From assembly GCA_024655945.1 (NCBI GenBank), contig JANLFK010000003.1:62001-126000 (forward strand): DNA of 64,000 bases, written 5' to 3'. This DNA comes from a candidate division KSB1 bacterium (GTDB lineage: Bacteria > Zhuqueibacterota > Zhuqueibacteria > JANLFK01 > Oleimicrobiaceae). Below are positions 1-55,220 of this stretch, piece by piece. The notes beneath the pieces were generated by a model. It ran no database searches. It saw only the letters and a program-made list of their open reading frames with translations, and was not told the origin of the DNA. Numbering within the stretch: the stretch's first letter is position 1; each line of letters begins with the position of its first letter. Position numbers and translations under genes: made by a program.

Positions 1-879
1 ATGAGCGGAGAGAGTTTGGACTTGCAACCTTCTGATGCGCCAGTCAGCAACGGTCCAGGCGCGCCGCTTTCCGCCAAGCAGGTGGCCGATTTTCGGCAAG
101 TCATCTTGGCCTACTATCGACGCCACGGGCGCGACTTGCCCTGGCGACGCACCACGGAGCCCTACCACATCCTCGTCTCTGAGGTGATGTTGCAGCAGAC
201 CCAGGTGGAGCGCGTGCTGCGCATCTATCCCGAGTTCATTTCTCGGTTCCCTTCTCTGCGCGCCCTGGCCGGCGCCACGGTGGCCGAGGTGGTAGCTGCC
301 TGGCAGGGCTTAGGGTACAACAGGCGAGCTCTCGCTCTCCAGCGAGCCGCCCACCTGCTCGTGAAAGAGCACGGGGGAACACTCCCCCGCGATGAGGCCC
401 TGTTGGCGACCTTGCCGGGCATAGGGCCGGCTACGGCTGCTTCCATCTGCGCCTTTGCCTTCAATATGCCGACGGTCTTTGTGGAGACCAACATTCGCAC
501 TGTGTTCATCCATTTCTTCTTCCCGCAGGAAGAGAAGGTGCCGGATGCGGAGATTCTCCCTCTGGTCGCCGCCACCCTGGAGCGGGGCAATCCCCGGCTC
601 TGGTACTCTGCGCTGATGGATTACGGGGTGATGCTCAAGAAGAGGGCGGGTAATCTGGCGCGGCGTAGTGCATCCTACCGGCCACAGAGTGGCTTTGCCG
701 GCTCCGACCGCCAGGTGCGGGGCCAAATGTTGCGGTTGCTTCTTGCCGGCGAGCAGTTGAGCATAGCAGGCCTCGCCGCCGCGTTGCAGCAACCGGAGGA
801 GCGCGTGGCACGCATCGCAGACGCCCTGGTGCGCGAGGGATTCGCCGCCCGGGAGGATGGCAGCCTCCGTCTGCGCTGA
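1..879 (+). CDS. MutY-like adenine DNA glycosylase lacking the Fe-S cluster
   Basis: HhH-GPD base-excision glycosylase of the MutY group, 292 aa, expected to remove adenine mispaired with 8-oxoguanine. Visible are the MutY-type segment SEVMLQQTQ with the catalytic Glu at residue 61, the helix-hairpin-helix LPGIGPATA at 138-146, and ETNIRTVF at 162-169, where E. coli MutY has its second catalytic residue (Asp138) and this protein has Glu. The four Cys of the usual C-terminal [4Fe-4S] loop are absent: the only Cys is residue 150. A small C-terminal winged-helix-like segment follows (about 235-292) in place of the long MutT-like domain. The ATG is the first base of the window, so a further upstream start cannot be excluded. 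Family call firm; exact substrate inferred. Confidence 0.85.
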   Translation: MSGESLDLQPSDAPVSNGPGAPLSAKQVADFRQVILAYYRRHGRDLPWRRTTEPYHILVSEVMLQQTQVERVLRIYPEFISRFPSLRALAGATVAEVVAAWQGLGYNRRALALQRAAHLLVKEHGGTLPRDEALLATLPGIGPATAASICAFAFNMPTVFVETNIRTVFIHFFFPQEEKVPDAEILPLVAATLERGNPRLWYSALMDYGVMLKKRAGNLARRSASYRPQSGFAGSDRQVRGQMLRLLLAGEQLSIAGLAAALQQPEERVARIADALVREGFAAREDGSLRLR

Positions 880-954
880 CTGCGGGGCCACAAGCGTGTC
901 GCTCACACAAAGGGGAGTTCACGACCGAGGACTTGCAAAAGGGAGGGTTTGGCC

Positions 955-1848
955 ATGTACAGGCACGTTATTGGTGGCCTCTGGAGCGAGCAGGCGCGGA
1001 GCCCTTGGGCAGCACGAGCGGGCATGGTGGCCTTGGTAGCCTCAGGCCTGCTGAGCGGCTGCGCCGCCCTCAAGACCATCGGCATGAAAGAGCCCACTGC
1101 GACGGTAAGAGGGGTGCGTCTGACCTCCCTTTCTTTCGAGCAACTGGGCCTGGCCGTGCAGGTCGCCGTGCACAATCCCAATGCGGTGGCTCTGACGCTG
1201 GCTGGCTACGACTACCAGCTCAAATTGGGGGGCACGCCCCTTTTCTCTGGCACCCAGGAACAGGCGCTGACCGTGCAGGGCCAGGCAGAGAGCGTGGTGG
1301 AGGTCCCCGTCGCCCTACGCTTCGCCGAGCTCTTCGATACGCTGCAGAACCTGCGCGCGCAGGACAGCACCGACTTGGGAGTAACCGCCAATTTGTGGTG
1401 TGACCTCCCGGTGCTGGGGCGCAAGAAACTTCCCATGAACGTGAGCCATCGCGTTCCGCTCCTCAAGCTGCCGGCGTTGACGGTCGAAGGGGTCAGCGCC
1501 AAAATGGTAGGGCTGACCAGTGCCGAGATAGGGCTCCGCGTGCGCGTGCGCAACCCCAACTCCTTGGGGTTCAACATCAACCAGCTCAGCTATGCGCTCA
1601 CCCTGCACGACGAGGTTCCGGCTAACGGCGTCCTCCAGAACCTGCAGCTCCCCGCGCACGGAACCGCCGACTTTACTGTGCCAGTGACCGTAGACCTTGT
1701 CAAAGTGGGGCAAGCGCTTTTCTCGGGGTTGACCTCAAAGCAGCCGGTCAAGTACGACCTTAAGGCGGATCTGGTGATGGGCTCCGGCCTCGACCTGTGG
1801 CGCGAGTCTGCATTGCACCTCAGCCACAGCGGCCAAATCACGCCCTGA
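955..1848 (+). CDS. LEA type 2 (WHy-domain) lipoprotein, tandem domains
   Basis: Predicted lipoprotein of 297 aa with two late-embryogenesis-abundant type 2 (WHy) domains. A hydrophobic segment ends in a lipobox (LLSGC, Cys near residue 36). The first domain, about 50-160, contains the characteristic VHNPNAVALTL turn. The second, about 175-290, contains VRNPNSLGFNI. ATG 955 is preferred over TTG 949 because GGGAGG at 941-946 lies 8 bases from it; an internal ATG at 1024 would give a more typical short signal peptide. Such proteins sit in the envelope and are linked to desiccation or stress; no specific role can be read here. Confidence 0.8.
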   Translation: MYRHVIGGLWSEQARSPWAARAGMVALVASGLLSGCAALKTIGMKEPTATVRGVRLTSLSFEQLGLAVQVAVHNPNAVALTLAGYDYQLKLGGTPLFSGTQEQALTVQGQAESVVEVPVALRFAELFDTLQNLRAQDSTDLGVTANLWCDLPVLGRKKLPMNVSHRVPLLKLPALTVEGVSAKMVGLTSAEIGLRVRVRNPNSLGFNINQLSYALTLHDEVPANGVLQNLQLPAHGTADFTVPVTVDLVKVGQALFSGLTSKQPVKYDLKADLVMGSGLDLWRESALHLSHSGQITP

Positions 1849-1865
1849 AGGCAGGCAGAAACAAG

Positions 1866-2642
1866 GTGCAGCACTTGCCCCGCGCATGCAAGCGATCGGG
1901 CACCAGGCAAGGGGTTACCCCACCTCCTGGGCTCTTTGGGCTCATCGCGCCCTGTTACGACCTGCTCAATCGCCTCATCTCGTTCGGGCAAGACAAAGGC
2001 TGGCGCCGCACGGCTGCCGCCTGGTGCGGCTCGCTGGCAAGACTTGGGGTGCTGGACGTCGCCACCGGAACAGGTGACCAGCTATTGGCCCTGTCCAGGC
2101 TGCCAAGCGCGCCCCACCATCTCGTGGGCATCGATGCGGCAGAAGAGATGCTGTGGCGCGGCAGACGGAAGGTCAAGGCCCTCAGGCGGCCTGTTTGCGT
2201 CCACTTCTGCCAGGCAATGGCTCACAGCCTACCGTTCAAGAACCGTTTCTTCGGCGCGGTCACCATGGCGTTTGCCATCCGCAACTTTGCCGATCGCCTC
2301 CAAGCCCTCGGCGAAGCGCGGCGCGTGCTGGTGCCGGGCGGCCGGCTGGTCATCCTGGAGGCTGGGGTACCTGACAAGCCGCCACTGCGCCTGCTCTTCC
2401 GGGTCTATTGCCGCTACGTCATGCCCACCCTCGCCGGGTTGCTTTCTGGCCAGCGGCGCGCCTATCGCTATCTATCTGACGCCATTTTCTCCTTCCCTGC
2501 ACCACAGGAGTTCAGCCGGCTCCTCGCGCAAGCAGGCTTCACGGTACTGCGTGTGGAGAGCCTGGCCTTTGGCGCCGCCAGAATCTTCGTCGCCTCTACT
2601 GGCAGTAGTGACGATGCCCCGGGAGACTCTTTTTCCGCTTGA
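1866..2642 (+). CDS. menG: demethylmenaquinone methyltransferase (MenG/UbiE family)
   Basis: SAM-dependent C-methyltransferase of the last step of menaquinone synthesis, 258 aa from GTG 1866. The N-terminal family signature is IAPCYDLLNRLISFG, SAM motif I is DVATGTGD (about 64-71), and NFADRLQALGEARRVLVPGG gives the post-I/motif III region typical of UbiE/MenG. The open frame runs back to GTG 1797, inside the preceding lipoprotein gene, but the family normally starts close to the IAP-YD motif, so 1866 is chosen; the ribosome binding site is weak (AAGGCAGG at 1849-1856). The bd oxidase in the window is a quinol oxidase, consistent with a menaquinone pool. Start uncertain, function firm. Confidence 0.85.
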   Translation: MQHLPRACKRSGTRQGVTPPPGLFGLIAPCYDLLNRLISFGQDKGWRRTAAAWCGSLARLGVLDVATGTGDQLLALSRLPSAPHHLVGIDAAEEMLWRGRRKVKALRRPVCVHFCQAMAHSLPFKNRFFGAVTMAFAIRNFADRLQALGEARRVLVPGGRLVILEAGVPDKPPLRLLFRVYCRYVMPTLAGLLSGQRRAYRYLSDAIFSFPAPQEFSRLLAQAGFTVLRVESLAFGAARIFVASTGSSDDAPGDSFSA

Positions 2643-40399: not shown

Positions 40400-40762
40400 C
40401 TATTCCACCTTCACCTGCACGGCGTTGTCCCACACGCCGTGGATGTTGCAGTACTCGAGGGCGATGAGCGTCGCGCTCTTTTCCAGCTTCATCGTGAAGG
40501 TCACCTTGGGCTCGCCAAAGGTCGGCCCTATGTCAAAGGTGGCGACGTGGACGATGTTGGGACGCCCCTCAATGGCTGCGTACACCTGAATCCACTTGAT
40601 GTGATGCTCCACCGTGTTGGGATGCGGCACCTCTTTGCCCACCGTGACGGTGACGGCAAAGGGTTCGCCGCTCTTCACCTTGGCCGGCACATCGATCACC
40701 GGCACATGCTTTTCCTTCCCCTCTTTTTCAGGTGGATTCACATAATCAGCAAAGCGTGCCAT
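40400..40762 (-). CDS. superoxide reductase (class II, neelaredoxin type)
   Basis: A 120-aa one-iron superoxide reductase that reduces superoxide to H2O2 without making O2. All ligands of the square-pyramidal iron are visible: His19 in EKHVP with the catalytic Lys18, His47, His53/54 in PHPNTVEHH, Cys105 and His108 in EYCNIHGVW. The N-terminal desulforedoxin domain is absent. Its electron donor is usually rubredoxin, encoded two genes away. The start is ATG 40762 rather than GTG 40765. Confidence 0.93.
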   Translation of the reverse strand: MARFADYVNPPEKEGKEKHVPVIDVPAKVKSGEPFAVTVTVGKEVPHPNTVEHHIKWIQVYAAIEGRPNIVHVATFDIGPTFGEPKVTFTMKLEKSATLIALEYCNIHGVWDNAVQVKVE

Positions 40763-40810
40763 CACTCACCTCATCTGCTTAGTGAATGCCCAAACCTCTT
40801 GCATTCCGCC

Positions 40811-41299
40811 TCACTGCCGGGAGGCCAGCTCGCGGTCGATCATGAACAGTCCATTCGGGTGATCGCCGACGAATTTCAGCTTGCCGACGATCTCCGCCGC
40901 GTGCGCTTCTTCCTCAACCTGCTCGGTGATAAACCACTGCAAGAACACCTGCGTGGCGTGGTCTTTCTCGGCCAGCGCCAGCTCGCAAAGGTCGGAAATC
41001 ATCTTGGTGACGGCCTTCTCGTGCTCCAAAGTCTTCTCGAACAGGGCTAACGGTGAGGCAAAGTCCGCAGGCGGCTTTTCGATGGCCTCCAGGGTCACCG
41101 TGGCGCCCTGGTCAAAGATGTAGCGGTAGAAGCGCATGGCGTGCCCCATCTCCTCGCGATACCGCTCCTCAAACCAGTGAGCGAAACCCTTTAGCCCTAT
41201 ATGCTCGCTGTAGGCTGCCATGGCCAGATACAGGTATGCAGAATACATCTCCCTGTTCACCTGTCGATTGAGAGCCTCTTGCATCTTTTTGCTGATCAT
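40811..41299 (-). CDS. ftn: ferritin
   Basis: A 162-aa non-heme ferritin. The four-helix diiron ligands are visible in NREMYSAYLYL, EERYREEMGHAMRF (Glu and His) and FITEQVEEEAHA. It stores iron as ferric oxide and consumes O2 or H2O2, limiting Fenton chemistry. ATG 41299 is chosen because AGGAGG lies 6 nt upstream; a TTG at 41305 is less likely. Confidence 0.93.
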   Translation of the reverse strand: MISKKMQEALNRQVNREMYSAYLYLAMAAYSEHIGLKGFAHWFEERYREEMGHAMRFYRYIFDQGATVTLEAIEKPPADFASPLALFEKTLEHEKAVTKMISDLCELALAEKDHATQVFLQWFITEQVEEEAHAAEIVGKLKFVGDHPNGLFMIDRELASRQ

Positions 41300-41355
41300 C
41301 CGCAACCTCCTCGTGCCGATTCGCTTGGTGCAAATGGGGCCGAGCCCCTTTGCCG

Positions 41356-41514
41356 TTATGCCTTCTCAAACATATCCTTGCCGACGCCGCACATCGGACA
41401 GACCCAGTCTTCGGGAAGATCTTCGAAGGGGGTTCCCGGCGCAATGCCACTGTCCGGGTCGCCCTTGGCCGGATCGTAGACGTATCCGCACACCTGGCAC
41501 ACGTACTTGTCCAT
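41356..41514 (-). CDS. rub: rubredoxin
   Basis: A 52-aa one-iron electron carrier: [19 protein letters not shown] opens it, with CxxC pairs at Cys6/Cys9 and Cys39/Cys42 and the standard [17 protein letters not shown] end. GAGGAG precedes the ATG. It sits between ferritin and a peroxiredoxin and is the obvious electron donor for superoxide reductase, the flavodiiron protein and the ferritin-like proteins of the block. Confidence 0.95.
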
Positions 41515-41595: not shown

Positions 41596-42243
41596 TCAGG
41601 GCAGCGGCTTGTAGCAGAACCACCAGTCATAACATTCGTACATGCCCTTGCGCGCAGCGATCTCCTGCTCGCTGGTGGGCGGCGGAACGATGACCTTGTC
41701 GCCAATCAGCTCGTTGTTGGGCCAATCGGCAGGGGTCGCCACCTTGTGCTGATCGGTGGTCTGCAAGGCCTTGAGCAAACGCACGATCTCGTCCATGTTG
41801 CGACCATTGGAAAGTGGGTAGTAGAGCATGGCGCGGATGATCCCCTTCGGGTCGATGAAGAAGACCGCACGCACCGTCTGCGTTCCCCCACCCACCGTGT
41901 GGAGCATGCCGAGCTTCTGCGCGATGGCGCCGGTGTTGTCGGCGATGATCGGGAAGGGGATTTCGATGTTCAGCCGCTCCTTGATCCACTCCGTCCACTT
42001 GATGTGCGAGAAAATCTGGTCGATGGACAGGCCGAGGAGCTCAGCATTGAGCGCCTTGAAGGTCTCGTGGCGCTTGGCAAAGCCCACAAACTCGGTGGTG
42101 CACACCGGCGTGTAGTCGGCAGGGTGACTGAACAGAATCACCCACTTGCCGGCATAGTCCTTGGGGAAATGAATATACCCCTTGGTGGTCTGCGCCTCAA
42201 ACTCAGGCACAGGGTCTCCGATCAATGGCATGCGTCCTTCCAT
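41596..42243 (-). CDS. Prx6-type peroxiredoxin (thioredoxin peroxidase)
   Basis: A 215-aa peroxiredoxin of the long archaeal-like Prx6 group. The peroxidatic Cys48 is in [13 protein letters not shown], and two C-terminal cysteines (204 and 210 in [12 protein letters not shown]) match the resolving pair of Aeropyrum-type enzymes. It reduces H2O2 and organic peroxides. GGAGG lies 6 nt before ATG 42243. Confidence 0.93.
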
Positions 42244-42324
42244 AGTGTACCTCCGTTTCATAGGATCACAACTTCGACGTTTCACCCCTTAGATGCGCTT
42301 TCTGGACAATGGTTGCAGAGTCGC

Positions 42325-44939: not shown

Positions 44940-45653
44940 TCACCGGAGCGCCTGCGCATACCGTTCCGCCACATCCTGCCAATTGATTATCTCGAAAATC
45001 TTGTCAACATATTCGCCGCGGCGGTTCTGGTACTTCAGGTAATAGGCGTGCTCCCAGACATCGATGACCAACAGCGGGACTGCACCCCATTGCGTGAGAT
45101 CCTGATGTTTCTCCGCCTGCAACACCTCGAGGTTGCCGAACGCGGGGACGTAGGCAAGCACTCCCCACCCGCTCCCCTCCACTGCCTTGGTGGCCGCGCT
45201 CAGCTGGGCCTTGCATGCGTCGAAACTGCCGAACCGAGAGATCATGGCCGACAGCAGCTTCCCCTTGGGCGCGCCGCCGCCCTGGGGCGAGAGATTGTGC
45301 CAGAAAATGGTGTGCAGGATGTGGCCGGACCCATGGAAAGCGATCTCGCGTTCCAGGTGCTTGATGTACTGGAAATTGCCGCTTTCCCTTGCCTGCACGA
45401 GCAGCCGCTCGGCCTCGTTGAGCCCTTTCACGTAGGCCGCGTGGTGGGCGTCATGGTGCAGCCTCATGGTTTGCTCGTCGATGATGGGCTCAAGCGCATT
45501 GTACGCGTAGGGGAGCGGCGGTAGCTGGTGGGTGCCAGGGGCAACCGCGCGTTTAGCCGGCGCTGCCTTCGCCCTGCTGCCACCCAGCATGGTGGCGGCG
45601 AGCACCCCACTTCCGGCAGCGGCGTGGAAAAACTCCCGTCTGGTCACAGCCAT
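44940..45653 (-). CDS. sodA: Tat-exported Fe/Mn superoxide dismutase
   Basis: A 237-aa Fe/Mn-type SOD preceded by a twin-arginine signal (TRREFF near residues 4-9, hydrophobic stretch to about 30). Metal ligands: His in MRLHHDAHH, His in HGSGHILHTIFW, and Asp/His in DVWEHAYY. Metal choice cannot be decided. Most bacterial Fe/Mn SODs are cytoplasmic; a Tat signal implies folding with metal before export. It works outside while superoxide reductase protects the cytoplasm. Confidence 0.92.
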   Translation of the reverse strand: MAVTRREFFHAAAGSGVLAATMLGGSRAKAAPAKRAVAPGTHQLPPLPYAYNALEPIIDEQTMRLHHDAHHAAYVKGLNEAERLLVQARESGNFQYIKHLEREIAFHGSGHILHTIFWHNLSPQGGGAPKGKLLSAMISRFGSFDACKAQLSAATKAVEGSGWGVLAYVPAFGNLEVLQAEKHQDLTQWGAVPLLVIDVWEHAYYLKYQNRRGEYVDKIFEIINWQDVAERYAQALR

Positions 45654-45677: not shown

Positions 45678-46130
45678 TTAGTTTTCCTGCAGAATCTCGT
45701 CGTCGTAGATGGTTTCCAAACGCAGCTTGTGGCGTGCCTCCTCTTCTGCCAGCAGGCCGAAGAGCCTCTGCAATTGGGCATCGCCAGTGCGGCGCTGCAA
45801 ATCGCTGTACAGGCGCACCGATTGTTCCTCGCGCTTCATGGCCAAGATGAGCATGTCCTGATAGCTCATGTCCGGGCGAAATTCCACCTCCACCAAGTAG
45901 TCGCTGATCTTCAGATCGGGCACCTTGGCGGCAGCAGGCTTGCTCAGGCTCTCCGGTTTCAGCTCCAGGAGCATCGCCTTGTGTCTTCGCTCCTCTGCAG
46001 CGAATTCGGCAAAAGTCTTTTTCGCAAGGGGGGTAACGGCCACCTGCTGGGCTGTCTCATACAGGGCCGCAGCCTCTTCTTCCTTCTCCACGGCAAAGTG
46101 GATCGCCTGCCGGAACTGCTCCTCAGTCAT
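45678..46130 (-). CDS. ferritin-like diiron protein (rubrerythrin domain)
   Basis: A 150-aa four-helix protein with paired diiron motifs: EKEEEAAALYE, AEERRHKAM, KREEQSVRLY and AEEEARHKLRL (ExxH twice). It lacks the rubredoxin domain of classical rubrerythrin, so it would use the separate rubredoxin. A peroxidase role is inferred from the family and from its neighbours. Confidence 0.87.
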   Translation of the reverse strand: MTEEQFRQAIHFAVEKEEEAAALYETAQQVAVTPLAKKTFAEFAAEERRHKAMLLELKPESLSKPAAAKVPDLKISDYLVEVEFRPDMSYQDMLILAMKREEQSVRLYSDLQRRTGDAQLQRLFGLLAEEEARHKLRLETIYDDEILQEN

Positions 46131-47581: not shown

Positions 47582-48121
47582 CTAACCGCCGTCGAACATC
47601 CAATTCTCTTCTTCCGCGTGGTATTGAGCAGGGTTGTCCAGATAGCGGAGGGAATTCTCCAGAATCAGGTGATGCTCTCGCTCCTGCTCGGTCATGAAGG
47701 TGTAGAACTGCTTGGCGGTCTGGTCACTGGCGGCTGCCGCCCGCTCCTTGTAGAAAACGATCAGCTTGTCCTCGAAATCGCGCGCCAACCGATAGGCCTC
47801 GAGCACATCGGCCTGCGTGCTCACGGTCTCGTCAAGGCGCTCTCTGGCTGCGCGGAAAACACTGCGAAAAGTGGCGATGGCCTCCCCTCGCTTGCCCTGC
47901 AAGTGGGCCGCGCTCGTCCACTGGCCGCGCTCACGCAGCGACGCATAGAAGTGCTGAATAATGCTGATGTGCTCCAGCTCCCAGTCGGCTAAGTAGGCGA
48001 AGGTCTCCTTGGCAAGAGGATGCTCCGTCCTGTCGCGGGCGGCGAGGAAGAACTGCCGGCCCTCGCCTTCCAGCTTCAGGGCCAGGCTCAATGCCTGCAA
48101 ATCCTCGTGTGCACTCTCCAT
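47582..48121 (-). CDS. ferritin-like diiron protein
   Basis: A 179-aa four-helix protein with diiron-type residues in LALKLEGEGRQFFL, LADWELEHISI and RDFEDKLIVFY, EQEREHHLIL. It differs in sequence from the 45678-46130 protein but has the same fold. No rubredoxin domain. Function: probable peroxide or O2 scavenging, inferred. Confidence 0.85.
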   Translation of the reverse strand: MESAHEDLQALSLALKLEGEGRQFFLAARDRTEHPLAKETFAYLADWELEHISIIQHFYASLRERGQWTSAAHLQGKRGEAIATFRSVFRAARERLDETVSTQADVLEAYRLARDFEDKLIVFYKERAAAASDQTAKQFYTFMTEQEREHHLILENSLRYLDNPAQYHAEEENWMFDGG

Positions 48122-48192: not shown

Positions 48193-48384
48193 TCAGATCG
48201 TATACCCCAGCTCTCTGATGACGCGCTCCACTGCGGCACGGTGCACCTCGCCTTTGACGTGCACCGTCTTCTTCTCCACGTTCACCGCGACAGCCTCGAC
48301 GCCGGGGAGGACGCCAACGGCCTTCTCAATGTGCACCTTGCAATGACCGCAGGTAATGTCGGGGACATGCAGCTCCAAAGTCAT
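48193..48384 (-). CDS. heavy-metal-associated (HMA) domain protein
   Basis: A 63-aa metallochaperone-like protein with the metal site ITCGHCKVH (CxxC at Cys12/Cys15) and the ferredoxin-like fold ending in VIRELGYTI. AAGGAG precedes ATG 48384; the longer frame is unsupported. Cu(I) is the usual ligand, and it could deliver metal to CopA encoded about 22 kb away. Confidence 0.88.
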   Translation of the reverse strand: MTLELHVPDITCGHCKVHIEKAVGVLPGVEAVAVNVEKKTVHVKGEVHRAAVERVIRELGYTI

Positions 48385-48435
48385 CGTTTCATCTCCTTGG
48401 GAGGTGGGCACTGCCGGAGGGCGGCGTGCCACTCC

Positions 48436-49617
48436 CTACTTCTGCGCCAAAGCCTTTGCCAAGGCGCGACCATCTTCCCCCAGGTGTCCGAGTTGCTCCT
48501 CGTCGGGCACCCACTGCACACGCCGGGCCGCTACAGGCTCCTGCCAGCCAAGGGCAGAAAAGACTTCTTCGATCTCCGCTACCGCCTGTCCTCCCCAGCC
48601 GTAGGAGCCAAAGGCAAAGCCCATCCTGTTGCGCGGCCGCAGGCCCTTCAGATAGGTCAAGAATTGGCCCACGCTCGGCAACAAACCGTTGTTCAGCGTG
48701 GGCGAGCCAACCAGAACCAGCCGCGACTGCAGCAGGTCGGTCATCACCTCGGAGATATGCGTGGTCTCGAGGTTGCGCACCGTGACCGGCACGCCCTCGG
48801 CCTCCAGGCCCGTGCACAACGCCTGCGCCATCTTAGCCGTGGAGCCCCACATGCTGTCGTAGACCACGACGGCCTGGTCGTCGGCTTCATGGTTGGCCCA
48901 CCTCTCATATGCCTCCAGGATGCGACCGATGTTCTGCCGCCAGATCACGCCGTGGCTGGGGCAGATCATGTCGATTTTCAGACCGCCCACGGCCTGCAGG
49001 GCGCGTTTCACTTGCTCCCCGTACGGGAGCACGATGTTGGCGTAGTACTTGGCCGCCTGCGCATAGACCAGGTCCCATCCCGCCTCGTCGTCAAAGCGAA
49101 CGGCAGTGGCCAAGTGCTGACCGAAAGCATCGTTGGAGAAGAGGATTGCCTCCTCCGGCAGGTAGGTCACCATGGAGTCGGGCCAGTGTACCATGGGCGT
49201 GTGAAAGCACTGCAGCGACCTGCGCCCCAAGCTGAGCACCTCACCGGAGCGCACGACCCGGTAGTTCAGGTCGCCGTGAAAATGCGCCCGCAGCCCCTTC
49301 TCGCCATTTGGCGAGGCGAGAACTTGCGCCTTGGGGGCACGCTCCACCAGAGCCGGGATACTCCCTGAATGGTCCATCTCCACGTGATTGCACACCACAA
49401 AGTCGATCCTGGCCGGGTCAATCACGCTCCGCACGCGGGCCAAAAGCTCGTCAAAAAAGGGTCGCTTCGCCGTGTCCACCAGGGCAACCTTCTCGTCCAC
49501 GACAAGATAGGCGTTGTAGGTGGAACCATATGGGGTGAGGTAGCCGTGGAAGTTGCGCAGGTCCCAGTCTATGCTTCCCACCCAGTAGATCCCCGGTTTC
49601 AATTCCAAAGCCTTCAT
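48436..49617 (-). CDS. fprA: A-type flavodiiron protein (rubredoxin:O2/NO oxidoreductase)
   Basis: A 393-aa flavodiiron protein. The metallo-beta-lactamase-like N-terminus holds the diiron site with HVEMDHSG near residues 78-85 and the later His and Asp residues; the C-terminal flavodoxin domain has YDSMWGSTAKMAQAL for FMN. It reduces O2 to water (and NO to N2O) using electrons from rubredoxin. It has no C-terminal rubredoxin, so the free rubredoxin or the regulator's rubredoxin domain would interact. It is the first enzyme gene after the regulator, 12 nt away. Confidence 0.93.
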   Translation of the reverse strand: MKALELKPGIYWVGSIDWDLRNFHGYLTPYGSTYNAYLVVDEKVALVDTAKRPFFDELLARVRSVIDPARIDFVVCNHVEMDHSGSIPALVERAPKAQVLASPNGEKGLRAHFHGDLNYRVVRSGEVLSLGRRSLQCFHTPMVHWPDSMVTYLPEEAILFSNDAFGQHLATAVRFDDEAGWDLVYAQAAKYYANIVLPYGEQVKRALQAVGGLKIDMICPSHGVIWRQNIGRILEAYERWANHEADDQAVVVYDSMWGSTAKMAQALCTGLEAEGVPVTVRNLETTHISEVMTDLLQSRLVLVGSPTLNNGLLPSVGQFLTYLKGLRPRNRMGFAFGSYGWGGQAVAEIEEVFSALGWQEPVAARRVQWVPDEEQLGHLGEDGRALAKALAQK

Positions 49618-49629
49618 ATGCGCTCATCC

Positions 49630-50265
49630 TCAGTTTGACGAATCGCCCTCGGAGGTTCGCCTCTTGAGAAGGGTAACCTCAACCGGAACAAACCTGTCGC
49701 GGGCGGCACCGCAGACCTTGCAGCACCAGTCCTCAGGCAGGCGACTGAAGGGAGTCCCCGGCGTGTCGTTCCCCCTTGCTGGATCGTAGACCCACCCGCA
49801 GACCGCACAGCGATAAGGGCGGCAGTCTTCTACCTGCTGGGCGCTCCTCACGCAGTCGGCGCAGACCCCGATGAACAGCGCCTGCACCGTCTCCACTGCG
49901 TGACCGTCGATTGTGCCTTGGGCGGCCACTGAGCACTGCACCGGCACGTCGTAGATGCGCCCGCACACCCGACAGTGGAAATGGTGGTGCGACTCCTCCG
50001 CCAGGTCGAAACGCTTCTCCTTGCCGACCACAAGCTCGCTCACAAGACCCGCTTGCTTGAGTGTTTCCAGAGTGTTGTAGACGGTGGCCAGGGAGAGGGT
50101 GGGGTAGTGGCTGCGCAGAGCGCGATGAATCTCCTCGGCAGTGGGGTGGGATCCCTGCTCCTGCAGGTAGTTGAGGACTGCCAGGCGCTGAATGGTCAGC
50201 ACCACACCCTTTTTTCTGAGGAGCTGGATCTTGTCCTTCATCATGCCGCCAGTATTGTAATTCAT
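49630..50265 (-). CDS. PerR/Fur-family repressor fused to a C-terminal rubredoxin domain
   Basis: A 211-aa regulator. Residues about 9-85 are the Fur winged helix ([19 protein letters not shown] is the recognition region). About 86-145 is the dimerisation domain: Asp87 in KRFDLAEES, then HHHFHC (93-98) and CRVC, and Asp106 in GRIYDV at the PerR Asp104-equivalent position, where true Fur proteins have Glu. Cys98/101 and Cys135/138 form the structural zinc site. Residues about 150-197 are a complete rubredoxin: CAVC (153-156), [11 protein letters not shown] and CKVC (182-185). I know of no described regulator of this type. It heads the oxygen-defence genes. ATG 50265, 50244 or 50241 could be the start. 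Confidence 0.9.
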
Positions 50266-50308
50266 CTTAGGTTGTAATGAATATAAGCGAATATTTCGTG
50301 AAAATCAA
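50255..50308 (-). promoter_or_regulatory. promoter with operator-like repeats ahead of the Fur-rubredoxin gene
   Basis: On the minus strand TTGATT (50308-50303), a 17-bp spacer, and TATATT (50285-50280) form a sigma70-type promoter. An imperfect operator candidate overlaps it: AATAT-6-ATATT inverted repeat (50280-50295). Direct repeats TTGTAAT occur at 50255-50261 and 50272-50278. Autoregulation by the Fur-type protein is inferred. Confidence 0.6.
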
Positions 50309-50688: not shown

Positions 50689-51501
50689 CTATCGGACTAT
50701 GGCCAGCCGTTTGGTGGCTGATTGCGCACCCACTTGAAGTCGGTAGAGGTACACGCCCGCAGGCAGAGGTCGGCCTGCCGCGTCGGAGCCGTCCCAGGCC
50801 AGGGTGTGGTCGCCGGTGCCGAGTCGGCCACGGAACACGGTACACACCTCTCTGCCGAGCAGGTCATACACCACCAGCGACACCTCCTCCGGCTTGGGAA
50901 GCGAGAAGCCAATGGAGGTGGTGCCGTGCGCCGCAGCCCCGGAGCCAAAGGGGTTGGGGTAGTTCTGTGCCAGGGCGAAGCGCGTGGGCGTCACGGCCGC
51001 AGCTGCCACGCCGGAAGGGGAACCGACGACGAACACCCCGCCTTCCGCCGTGGCTTCAACCACTTCGTTTTCGCCGTTGATGAGTATCAGGCTGAGGACT
51101 TGCAGGGCGACCTCCGTGCCCAGCGGCGCATTGGCTGCCACCTGGTAGCTGACGTTCACCACCGCGCCGCTATCCGCCTCCAGTGTGTAGTTGAAGGAGA
51201 TGGCGATGAGGCGGAGCACGCCATCGACGTCGTTGAAGCGGGCAATAAAGCCGTACGCCCGCCCAGTCACCCACACCGAATCCGGGCGCAGATAGTCGGG
51301 GAGATCGGCAAGCTCCAGCTGCATCCCTCGCACTGGAGCTTCATTCCTCAGCGCAATAGTGATGACGTTGCCGGTGCTGCCGGGCAGGCCAGCCCCGGAG
51401 CCCACGCACAGGCGATTGGCAGAGGCCATCGCCTGTGGCGCTACCAGCAAGCAGAGGAGTGCGGCGAACCACCCACCGTTGCGAACATGTCTGAGCATCA
51501 T
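50689..51501 (-). CDS. secreted cohesin-like protein with FlgD-like C-terminal sorting segment
   Basis: A 270-aa exported protein. The signal peptide ends near APQAMASA. A cohesin-like beta-domain (about 28-160) contains GSTGNVITIALRNEAPVRGM. A linker precedes FALAQNYPNPF and a FlgD-like Ig domain with LVVYDLLGREV, GDHTLAWDGSDAAGR and LPAGVYLYRL (about 180-270). C-terminal segments of this type direct type IX secretion in Bacteroidota and are common on secreted proteins of related phyla. A double ATG (51501 and 51498) makes the exact start uncertain. Last gene of a three-gene operon. Confidence 0.82.
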   Translation of the reverse strand: MMLRHVRNGGWFAALLCLLVAPQAMASANRLCVGSGAGLPGSTGNVITIALRNEAPVRGMQLELADLPDYLRPDSVWVTGRAYGFIARFNDVDGVLRLIAISFNYTLEADSGAVVNVSYQVAANAPLGTEVALQVLSLILINGENEVVEATAEGGVFVVGSPSGVAAAAVTPTRFALAQNYPNPFGSGAAAHGTTSIGFSLPKPEEVSLVVYDLLGREVCTVFRGRLGTGDHTLAWDGSDAAGRPLPAGVYLYRLQVGAQSATKRLAIVR

Positions 51502-51536
51502 ATGTTATGCCATCCCAATCCGCCAGCCCACTTCGA

Positions 51537-53315
51537 TCACGGGAAGAGGTCAAAGACTGCCAACATATCGAAAAGGTCTATGTCGCCATCGTGGTCCACG
51601 TCACCGCTCAGCAGCTGTGCCGCAGTGGGCGCCGTCTTGCCCAGCACAATGTCGGCCATGACTGCTATGTCCGCCTTGGTCACGGCTCCGTTGCCATTTA
51701 GGTCGCCAACCTTGACGTAGCTGAACAACCCGTTGACAATGTCCGGCACCACCTGCTGGTTGTTGGCGTCGCTTATCGACACGTTGGTGAGCACCAAATT
51801 GGACGAACTCCCCAGCGGGGCAGCGGAGTTGATGTGGTACTTGATCTGGAGGATAGGACCGTTCCCTACCGGGATCACTGCGCCCGCCATCGAGGCCAAG
51901 AGGACCTGCACGGAGCCTTCCTTTTCTGTGCCTGCGACAGTGAAGCCGGTCGCGCGTCCCACGGGGGTTATCGAACTCGTCAAGGGGGTGGACACTTGCA
52001 AGTGGTCGGGGGCATCCGCCAAACGGAAGAGGATGCCGCGCACGTTGACCTGGTTGTTGAGCCAGATATTGACGGCACCGGTCTTGCCAGGTTCGCCACT
52101 CGAGCTCTGCACCCTGAGCACCACCAGGGAGGAAATGGTGAACACGCCGTCGCTCTGGTCGCTGGGGAGGCCGTCCAAGGCATCCTCCACCTTGATCATC
52201 GCTGCGGTAGAAGTCTGCGCGGGGAGCGTCCAGGTGTAGGAGCCTGTATTCGGCGCCACGGTGATCTCGGTCCAGTTCGCGCCGCCATTGAGGGAGTACC
52301 GTAGGCGCACGTTGGTGATAACGCTCGTGGCCCTCCAGGTGATCTGCCGTTGCGTGTTCACAATCCAGGTCTCGCCGCCGTTGGGGCTGATGAGTGTAAT
52401 CTGCTCAGTCTCCGGCTCAATGGTAAAGTCGGCATCGCTGATGTCAATGGGAATGCCACTGGCCGCCGACGAGATACGCACCCGACAGGTGTTGGAAGGC
52501 GTGTTGGGGATCTCCCAGGCGTACGAGCCTGTGTTGCTGGTGGAGGCGACGACCGTGCTCCACGAGGTGCCGGAATCGGTGGAGTATTCGATCTTGACAT
52601 TCCCCGAGTAGTCCGAGTACGTCCAGGTGACATTGTACGTGGAGTTAACCGTCCACTTCTCGCCGCCATTGGGGGCGGTAACGGTGATCACCGGGGCCCG
52701 CACGGTAAAGTCGTCAATGTCATTGGCCAAGTTGGCAAAAAGGCTGACACCTGCGTAGAGCACGCCGCTGGTCCCGTACGTCTTCTGCGGGTCGTTCACG
52801 CGCGTGTCGAACAGGCCATTGATGTAGAAGTCAAAGTGGTGGCCGGTGGCGTCGGTGGAGGCCACAACTTTGATGACATCGCCCGGCTTGTAGCTGGGAA
52901 GTGCCACCGCCTTGGTGTCAATGGGTTGCTCGCGTTTCACCTCGCCGTTGACCACCGGGCAGAGCAGGATGTAGCCGCCGCGGCGGATCACACAGTAGCC
53001 GCTGGCCGTTGAAGACGGGGCGTTGAGGAAGATGGCAATGCCGCCGGCGTTGATGCCTTCCACCGTGGCATTGGCGGCCCATTTGAACGACACCTCGGTG
53101 GGGTTGGTGACCGCGGTAAACACCGCTAAATAGTTCCACCCAGGCGTGGTGGAGGTATTGGACAAAGCATTGTTGACGATCTGATAGGCCGCGTGTGCTG
53201 CCCAATTGGGGCCCAGGCTGGCGCGGTTGAAGTTGTCCGTGACAACTGCTGCGTGGCCCGCCGCACACGTCAGGGAGATCGCCACGAGCACGAGTGCAAG
53301 GCTTCTTGTCTTCAT
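51537..53315 (-). CDS. secreted multidomain protein with cohesin-like and dockerin-like modules
   Basis: A 592-aa exported protein. Order: signal peptide (1-24); a LamG/concanavalin-like beta-sandwich (about 30-205) with ASGYCVIRRGGYILL and FDFYINGLFD; two related Ig-like repeats (about 210-300 and 305-400) opening ITVTAPNGGEKWTVNS and ITLISPNGGETWIVNT; a cohesin-like domain (about 405-520) with GKTGAVNIWLNNQVNVRG; and a C-terminal dockerin-like pair, GDLNGNGAVTKADI and GDVDHDGDIDLFDM, each with Ca2+-loop spacing. No catalytic site is seen. ATG 53315 is chosen by its spacing from GAGG. Adhesion or assembly role inferred. Confidence 0.85.
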   Translation of the reverse strand: MKTRSLALVLVAISLTCAAGHAAVVTDNFNRASLGPNWAAHAAYQIVNNALSNTSTTPGWNYLAVFTAVTNPTEVSFKWAANATVEGINAGGIAIFLNAPSSTASGYCVIRRGGYILLCPVVNGEVKREQPIDTKAVALPSYKPGDVIKVVASTDATGHHFDFYINGLFDTRVNDPQKTYGTSGVLYAGVSLFANLANDIDDFTVRAPVITVTAPNGGEKWTVNSTYNVTWTYSDYSGNVKIEYSTDSGTSWSTVVASTSNTGSYAWEIPNTPSNTCRVRISSAASGIPIDISDADFTIEPETEQITLISPNGGETWIVNTQRQITWRATSVITNVRLRYSLNGGANWTEITVAPNTGSYTWTLPAQTSTAAMIKVEDALDGLPSDQSDGVFTISSLVVLRVQSSSGEPGKTGAVNIWLNNQVNVRGILFRLADAPDHLQVSTPLTSSITPVGRATGFTVAGTEKEGSVQVLLASMAGAVIPVGNGPILQIKYHINSAAPLGSSSNLVLTNVSISDANNQQVVPDIVNGLFSYVKVGDLNGNGAVTKADIAVMADIVLGKTAPTAAQLLSGDVDHDGDIDLFDMLAVFDLFP

Positions 53316-53366
53316 CGCTGGCACCTCACCACTTGTTTTGTCCGACTGGCACGGGACGCGCCTGCC

Positions 53367-54779
53367 TTACCTCAGGACGGCGAGCTTCCGCACTAAGGTC
53401 AGGCTGCCCGCCATGAGCTTGTAGAAGTAGACGCCGGAGGAGACGGAGTTGCCGGTTTCATCGCGACCATCCCATTGCACCACGTAGCGTCCCGGCTCAC
53501 GCCTGCTGCGCTCGAGCACGCGCACCAACTGCCCGTGAATATTGTAGACGGCCACCTGCACATCGACAGCTCCGCTGCTCTGCGCGGGGATGTCGTAAGC
53601 GATCACCGTGGTTGCACCAAAGGGGTTGGGATGGCTCTGGTGCAGGGCAAAGGCAGCTGGAACCTGCCCCTGCCGCGGACTTTGCTGTTCCCAGACCAGG
53701 TCCACACGCTGGCCACTGACCGTGGCACCCACCGCATGCAGCACCTGCAGTGGAATGGTTCCGCCTTCATCCCTGCTGGTGACAAGAAGGCTCGCCACCG
53801 TCCCGCGGCCTGCGGGCATCACTATGCCGGCTGGACTGTAGAGGAGCAGGTGCAGGCGGTCGCCGGCCATCTTACTGGCCAGAGACATGCCGTTGGCAAT
53901 GCCGCACACCGAGGGCGTGCCCCCGGTCAAGTCCTTTGCCGCAAGCTGTAGATCGAGTTCCATTCCAGCCAATGGCACGGGGCTTTCCACGTCGATGGTG
54001 ACCTGGAACTGCTGGGCGTTCAGCTCAGGGCCTCTGCTCAAGGCGATGGCTCCGCGGAATGCACCAGGCGCTTCTTCGCCAAGGGCGGCAGCCTTGGGCA
54101 AGCCCGACACGGCGACGTCAATAGCCTTGCCGATGTCCGAGACGTCCACTGCGCCGTTGTTGTCAAAGTCGCCAGCCCAACGCTCGTACGCCGTTGGTGT
54201 CGGCGGACGCTGCAAGGCCATGTCGATCATACGCAGCACGTCAAACAGGTCCACCGCCTCGTTGTAAATGACGTCCCCTTTCCTGCCGAACCAAAAGACG
54301 CCGCTCTTTTGCACGAGGGTGAGCGGAGGGTTGCCTGTGGCATTTGCCGCCGCGCGCACGCTATCGAAGCCCACGCTGGCGTTCGTGCCACCTGTGGCGT
54401 TGGCAGCCACGCGCACATAGACCCACAAGATGTCGTCACTCCCTGCGGTGAGCCGCGAGCTGGTGCTGGTATCGGGGACCATCAGCACCCAGAATCCACC
54501 GGCCCTGCTGGTGGTGTCTACCCGGAACGAGGCGAGGCGCGACTTCTTTTCCATGCCGACAACCGTCAGCTTGTCCGGGCTGTCAACCAGCTTGAAGTGC
54601 ATCCCTTTGATCACTGTGGCGTTCTTGACACGAATGCTCAGCGTGTCCAAACCGCCAGGCAAGGCCCAGCCATTAGACACGAACAGCGTGTCGCCCGACT
54701 GTGCCTGTGCCGCCTCGGGCGCAGCAAGAACCCATACGACAAGCGCTGTGAGCGCGCAAGACAGACATGCTCTCCTCAT
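53367..54779 (-). CDS. secreted protein with two cohesin-like domains, dockerin-like repeat and FlgD-like tail
   Basis: A 470-aa exported protein: signal peptide (1-28); cohesin-like domain I (about 30-160) with GGLDTLSIRVKNATVIKGMHF; a dockerin-like pair (about 165-235), GDVIYNEAVDLFDVL and GDFDNNGAVDVSDI; a second cohesin-like domain (about 250-370) around QQFQVTIDVESPVPLAGM; then FALHQSHPNPFG and a FlgD-like Ig domain (about 375-470) ending with GVYFYKLMAGS. GGAGG precedes ATG 54779. First gene of the operon. Cohesin-dockerin pairing with its neighbours is possible but untested. Confidence 0.85.
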   Translation of the reverse strand: MRRACLSCALTALVVWVLAAPEAAQAQSGDTLFVSNGWALPGGLDTLSIRVKNATVIKGMHFKLVDSPDKLTVVGMEKKSRLASFRVDTTSRAGGFWVLMVPDTSTSSRLTAGSDDILWVYVRVAANATGGTNASVGFDSVRAAANATGNPPLTLVQKSGVFWFGRKGDVIYNEAVDLFDVLRMIDMALQRPPTPTAYERWAGDFDNNGAVDVSDIGKAIDVAVSGLPKAAALGEEAPGAFRGAIALSRGPELNAQQFQVTIDVESPVPLAGMELDLQLAAKDLTGGTPSVCGIANGMSLASKMAGDRLHLLLYSPAGIVMPAGRGTVASLLVTSRDEGGTIPLQVLHAVGATVSGQRVDLVWEQQSPRQGQVPAAFALHQSHPNPFGATTVIAYDIPAQSSGAVDVQVAVYNIHGQLVRVLERSRREPGRYVVQWDGRDETGNSVSSGVYFYKLMAGSLTLVRKLAVLR

Positions 54780-55220
54780 CGCACCCTCCGCTCGCAAAAG
54801 TCATCTCCTGCGTGCAGCAACCAAAGCCACATCCTGCCTGCTACCGCCTATCTAGTGCCACCCCGGCTACCACCTCGCACGCCTGCTCTGAGGCGTGCGC
54901 CCTGCTGTGCTTTCCGCTGTTCACAAATGATACGATGGTTCAGGCCGAGACAGCCACTCTCTTCGCCGGCCGGTACCACCTGGCGGGCACAGTGCCTTCG
55001 CCCTTGCCACGCGCTTGCACCCGGCGCTTTCTTTCGCAAAAACGAAGAGATAGGCAGCCCCTCTTTGTGCGCCATCGGGACGAGCTCCCGCCCTGCAGCG
55101 AGCAGATTGCCGAGCACGCTCCACTCGTCGCCGCTGCTCTGAAACGGCAAACGCTATGCCACCCGCGAGGACCGAGACGATGCGAAGGGGGAGCTCAGGA
55201 CGGCAGGACGCGGGGCGCTT
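54780..55220. other. 441-bp intergenic region
   Basis: It lies between two genes read leftward. CGCACGCC (54876-54883) and GGCGTGCG (54892-54899) form an 8-bp hairpin without a T-run. No convincing promoter, ORF or RNA is seen. Confidence 0.4.

Follow-up and report, generated by a model that had tools for sequence, protein, structure and literature searches.

A PerR-type Fur domain joined in one chain to a rubredoxin domain, encoded first in an oxygen-defence gene run of a candidate division KSB1 bacterium

The fusion gene, its operator and its neighbours

The window analysed here is a stretch of 64,000 nucleotides from contig JANLFK010000003.1 of a candidate division KSB1 bacterium. On its minus strand, positions 49630-50265 hold one stop-free frame of 211 codons, in which a Fur domain is followed by a rubredoxin (Rd) domain. 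Both families were recognised above cut-off in the same chain, FUR (PF01475) at residues 19-107 (E 3.4e-26, 92.2 bits for a cut-off of 23.1) and Rubredoxin (PF00301) at residues 151-192 (E 6e-15, 55.5 bits for a cut-off of 23), as had been claimed in the first-pass annotation of this DNA. The features of the locus are the following.

50280..50308, minus strand: sigma-70-like promoter, TTGATT-17-TATATT (1 found, for a shuffle mean of 0.1)
50272..50286, minus strand: putative PerR box, TTATATTCATTACAA (2 mismatches to the consensus TTATAATNATTATAA)
49630..50241, minus strand: PerR-rubredoxin fusion coding sequence from its likely true start, 203 aa (single frame; M9 conserved)
49846..50241, minus strand: PerR-type Fur domain, comprising winged helix, dimerisation part, regulatory metal site and Zn(Cys)4 (PF01475)
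49822..49845, minus strand: inter-domain linker, unconstrained, helical in the model (dN/dS at least 0.48 in every pair, over only 8 codons)
49678..49821, minus strand: rubredoxin domain, net charge +1 (PF00301, E 6e-15; four cysteines invariant in the genus)
48436..49617, minus strand: flavodiiron protein (FDP; ODP lactamase and flavodoxin domains), 12 bp downstream of the fusion
48193..48432, minus strand: heavy-metal-associated (CopZ-like) protein (PF00403)
47582..48121, minus strand: rubrerythrin/ferritin-like protein A (PF02915)
45678..46130, minus strand: rubrerythrin/ferritin-like protein B (PF02915)
44940..45653, minus strand: Fe/Mn superoxide dismutase, SOD (PF00081 and PF02777)
41596..42285, minus strand: peroxiredoxin, 1-Cys type (PF00578, PF10417)
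41356..41514, minus strand: standalone canonical rubredoxin, 52 aa, core charge -6 (PF00301, E 5.1e-27)
40811..41305, minus strand: ferritin (PF00210)
40400..40765, minus strand: superoxide reductase, SOR (PF01880)

In the sister genomes G001 and G002, which represent two further species of the genus, the fusion likewise lies in one frame, at 90% and 68% identity respectively. Since this is so, a frameshift or an assembly join of two separate genes is ruled out; omega (dN/dS) is also well below 1 in both domains. The annotated first methionine, M1, is absent from both relatives, and M9, not M1, is common to the three species, as ATG, ATG and GTG. For this reason the coding sequence is best taken as 49630-50241, probably 203 aa long with its start ATG at 50241. 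Residue numbers given below (C153 for example) follow the 211-residue frame. In each of the three genomes of the genus, which are 95-98% complete, the fusion was the only PF01475 protein found by family search.

The fusion heads a same-strand run in which every gap is at most 90 bp. It is followed, in order, by the FDP, the CopZ-like protein, a rubrerythrin-like protein, DsrE, Usp, a second rubrerythrin-like protein, SOD and a molybdopterin protein, and then by rpiA, rpe, RseC, peroxiredoxin, free rubredoxin, ferritin, SOR, cydA and cydB, where rpiA, rpe, cydA and cydB are presumed identities, taken from a reading of their translations. The run forms an oxygen-defence island (FDP, two rubrerythrin-like proteins, SOD, peroxiredoxin, standalone Rd, ferritin, SOR and cydAB), in line with the defence enzymes that had been noted next to the fusion. 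Gene order is maintained in both sister genomes, to the extent of their loci, and the FDP, in which domain search found no Rd domain of its own, adjoins the fusion in all three species. Between 37945 and 42933 (minus strand), peroxiredoxin, free rubredoxin, ferritin, SOR and cydAB are consecutive; a Chloroflexi locus (L033) groups a similar set, split perR-rd, a Prx-like gene, SOR, cydA and cydB, in some 6.5 kb. On the other side of the fusion, upstream, three consecutive secreted proteins are encoded at 50689-54797 (minus strand). A cohesin domain and a type I dockerin domain share the chain of the middle one, and each of the outer two has a FlgD-Ig/type IX-like sorting domain at its end. Their homologues are clustered in G001 and G002 too.

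An operator had been predicted at 50255-50308. The place proved right, and the extent was narrowed to the putative PerR box at 50272-50286, in the promoter at 50280-50308, the -10 of which sits within the box. TTATATTCATTACAA is the only match in the window to TTATAATNATTATAA with 3 mismatches or fewer (0.02 expected by chance). The box aligns in G001 and G002 as a conserved block inside an otherwise diverged upstream region, with 4 mismatches each to the B. subtilis consensus in these two genomes, for 2 in the window species, and a pattern built from the boxes of the three species occurs exactly once per genome. When a wider PerR regulon was sought genome-wide with the B. subtilis consensus and 3 mismatches, the sites found were not above the level of a control pattern, and the regulon claim is therefore limited to the promoter of the fusion itself. 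We infer from this arrangement that the fusion is very probably a local autorepressor, and that it also represses at least the first genes downstream.

Properties of the two domains

The best PDB sequence match of the Fur domain is B. subtilis PerR (2fe3, E 8.5e-24), and the best fold match of its AlphaFold2 (AF2) model is the metal-bound form PerR-Zn-Mn (3f8n). By alignment, H40, D87, H93, H95 and D106 correspond to H37, D85, H91, H93 and D104 of B. subtilis PerR, and these five regulatory ligands are invariant in the three species. D106 had been assigned to the position of the peroxide-sensing Asp; it does align with D104, and is an Asp, not a Glu; the residue at position 104 separates PerR from Fur (PMC4866751). 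The two zinc CxxC pairs that had been claimed were located at C98/C101 and C135/C138, the cysteines of the structural Zn(Cys)4 site. Compared with the NCBIfam PerR equivalogs, which describe PerR of other groups, the domain scored at best 110 bits for a cut-off of 180. In the PerR family, Fe-catalysed oxidation of His, which yields covalent 2-oxo-histidine, inactivates PerR and frees the DNA (PMC4866751).

The C-terminal part was said to be a complete rubredoxin, and it is a genuine Rd domain, above the PF00301 cut-off and with its two CxxC(G) pairs (C153, C156, C182 and C185). Most of the iron-site neighbours typical of Rd are kept, and the closest solved rubredoxin is 9zdi (E 3e-14). Mean pLDDT of the AF2 model of the whole fusion is 86.4, with block means of 80-95 over the Rd domain, and pTM is 0.66; both domains are confident, and their relative placement is uncertain. 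In this model the linker from the Zn(Cys)4 end to Rd is short, and a helix is seen in the linker region, at residues 128-139. In the part encoded at 49700-49800 (minus strand), an Rd loop of the window species is four residues shorter than in its sister G001, the four cysteines being kept in both.

Pairwise NG86 estimates of omega for the Rd part were 0.03 (G000-G001) and 0.12 (G000-G002), and 0.14 for the PerR part; they rest on three sequences, with dS near saturation for G002. Both parts fall within the range of the neighbouring enzymes. On these values the Rd domain is clearly under purifying selection. Both domains are very probably functional, because the fusion is in frame in three species and omega is low in both, the linker being free to vary.

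The fused Rd core has a net charge of +1 in all three species. Twenty-five other Rds, from the phylum and beyond, have a mean charge of -6.7 (sd 2.0, highest -2), among them one (-7) that forms a single protein with a flavoprotein, encoded beside an FDP. The C-terminus of the fusion is a K/R-rich tail. The fused Rd is therefore no small free acidic carrier: it is fused, and the acidic surface of ordinary Rds is gone. The residue that follows its last CxxCG is Ala. The V44A change in C. pasteurianum Rd raises the potential (PMC10130062), but the Ala of the fused Rd says little about its potential, since the free Rds of the phylum also show it.

Distribution and origin of the fusion

The fusion was searched for, by profile or protein and with strict E-value limits, in a sample of about 1,600 genomes from six phyla. 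These were 82 genomes of the phylum of the window, and 350, 395, 300, 199 and 248 genomes of the phyla to which the Chloroflexi, Desulfovibrio, Clostridia, Phycisphaerales and Porphyromonadaceae MAGs respectively belong. No single-frame PerR-Rd fusion was found outside the genus in this sample, which rare or very divergent ones may escape, and viral contigs gave no relative. Several candidates were discarded. Chloroflexi and Desulfovibrio loci that looked fused in tblastn (spans 14-195 and 23-192) contain stops or frame changes between perR and rd. A plasmid match (H6, Cupriavidus, 84% coverage) is an ordinary Fur, which terminates before the second part of the match, and long open frames in G748 and G784 consist of perR and then a separate SOR, not Rd. 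In two genomes of the Desulfovibrio-phylum sample (L095 and L098), a superoxide reductase gene comes directly after perR, with one TAA between them.

A perR gene followed directly by a separate rd gene was found in two Chloroflexi genomes, four Desulfovibrio genomes and locus L093. At L075 (positions 1-1935, minus strand; Chloroflexi sample), three genes follow one another, for PerR, for a flavin-reductase-like protein with a fused rubredoxin, and for an FDP, and perR and FDP are linked in G075, from the same phylum as the window. The three fusions group as a single clade (100/99) of the PerR tree, and this clade is sister neither to the Chloroflexi split pairs (L033/L039) nor to those of Desulfovibrio; as judged from this topology, PerR and Rd seem to have been linked more than once in evolution.

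Possible roles of the rubredoxin domain and known systems

The reading that we put forward, and to which we give about an even chance, is that the fusion represses its own oxygen-defence operon as an autoregulated protein of PerR type, with Rd supplying a redox or accessory input in cis. In this scheme a dimer stabilised by Zn, its regulatory site occupied by Fe(II), would bind the PerR box over the -10 of its own promoter. H2O2 would oxidise a ligand histidine, the dimer would release the DNA, and the fusion gene and at least the FDP gene 12 bp downstream would then be made. The C-terminal Rd would be a working FeS4 domain (its metal could be Zn), kept by selection and specialised away from the free carrier. 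Close to the Zn/dimerisation end, it would most likely tune repression by its own oxidation or metal state. This in-cis role is suggested by charge, by selection and by analogy with the regulatory Rd domains of PknG and LapB (see below), and the lost acidic surface favours it over a generic electron carrier. Because the acidic face is lost and the island also encodes a canonical free Rd, we argue that the fused Rd may no longer be a general carrier; a dedicated partner, for instance in a dual use with the FDP, is possible. The first-pass annotation had suggested that Rd may sense the electron state of the pool that feeds the defence enzymes; the lost acidic surface and the free Rd of the island speak against a carrier simply coupled to that pool. 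It had also been proposed that Rd re-reduces the regulatory iron. This is unlikely, since the inactivation of PerR is a covalent change, to 2-oxo-histidine (PMC4866751), and an electron donor cannot undo such an oxidation.

Alternatively, the Rd end may be the electron donor of the adjacent FDP, and perhaps of rubrerythrin, in a bifunctional protein derived from fused neighbouring perR and rd genes: peroxide would inactivate the repressor, autoregulation would yield much fusion protein, and Rd would act as carrier. The adjacent FDP without Rd suits this scheme, and so do the split perR-rd neighbours of Chloroflexi, Desulfovibrio and L093, the row of perR, flavoprotein-Rd and FDP in L075, and the perR-FDP linkage in G075. 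However, none of the three species retains the acidic surface with which free Rds dock, the island encodes a canonical acidic Rd, a repressor with a single operator is normally scarce, and in the PerR tree the fusion is not sister to the split pairs, be it those of L033/L039 or of Desulfovibrio, so that we consider a donor role unlikely. The basic charge of Rd, its K/R-rich tail and the short distance in sequence to the Zn(Cys)4 end would fit a structural fold without redox chemistry, a Zn- or Fe-bound knob used for dimer stability, for DNA phosphate binding by its basic face or for protein docking; the retention of most Rd-typical iron-site neighbours and a neighbourhood rich in redox enzymes make this quite improbable. 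That the fusion is confined to one genus might evoke a neutral passenger born of a chance fusion, or a sequencing or assembly artefact, which is hardly credible with three species in frame at 68-90% identity and with purifying selection on Rd, none being visible on the linker.

The autoregulated repressor may also be a two-input one, a tentative and rather doubtful extension, in which a PerR peroxide sensor (Fenton-type) and a reversible Rd centre would share one chain, and derepression of the island would depend both on H2O2 and on Rd/FDP electron supply. If the two-input scheme is true, this only Fur-family protein of the genus would stand by itself where Fur, Zur and PerR are distinct regulators in other bacteria. 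The fusion would be the first repressor of the Fur family known to contain a rubredoxin centre, and would offer a direct test of whether a bacterium reads at the DNA, beside peroxide, how oxidised or reduced its oxygen-scavenging electron chain is. With its 203 aa and one operator the whole construct is small, and reconstitution in vitro is feasible.

The PerR-Rd architecture is apparently new, built of known parts. In agreement with the first-pass annotation, searches of the open-access literature, without subscription papers or InterPro architecture tables, gave no description of it. With B. subtilis-type PerR the fusion shares the winged helix, the five ligands with Asp104, the Zn(Cys)4 site, the PerR box and peroxide-defence neighbours, but canonical PerR stops a few residues past the last Zn cysteine, whereas the fusion runs on into rubredoxin. 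In perR-rbr-rdl of Desulfovibrio vulgaris and perR-rbr-roo of Geobacter (PMC545781), perR shares an operon with rubredoxin-like, rubrerythrin and FDP genes, behind an upstream palindrome; there, unlike in the fusion, PerR and rubredoxin are separate proteins. HTH-Dx-SOR (PMC3116461), likewise a protein of oxygen defence, couples a helix-turn-helix with desulforedoxin, a rubredoxin-like centre. It differs in that it is not reported as Fur type, has Dx for Rd and includes a superoxide reductase enzyme, a domain of which the fusion chain gave no PF01880 match. In the kinase PknG, a rubredoxin-like domain limits access to the active site (PMC8546545), and a tuning role has been proposed for that of the proteolysis adaptor LapB (PMC13333357). 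Both resemble the fusion in carrying a rubredoxin-like domain on a signalling or regulatory protein, where redox input is proposed or catalysis is tuned, but neither is a DNA-binding repressor. Rd domains in regulators are thus not unprecedented, as PknG and LapB illustrate, and HTH-Dx-SOR joins a helix-turn-helix to desulforedoxin.
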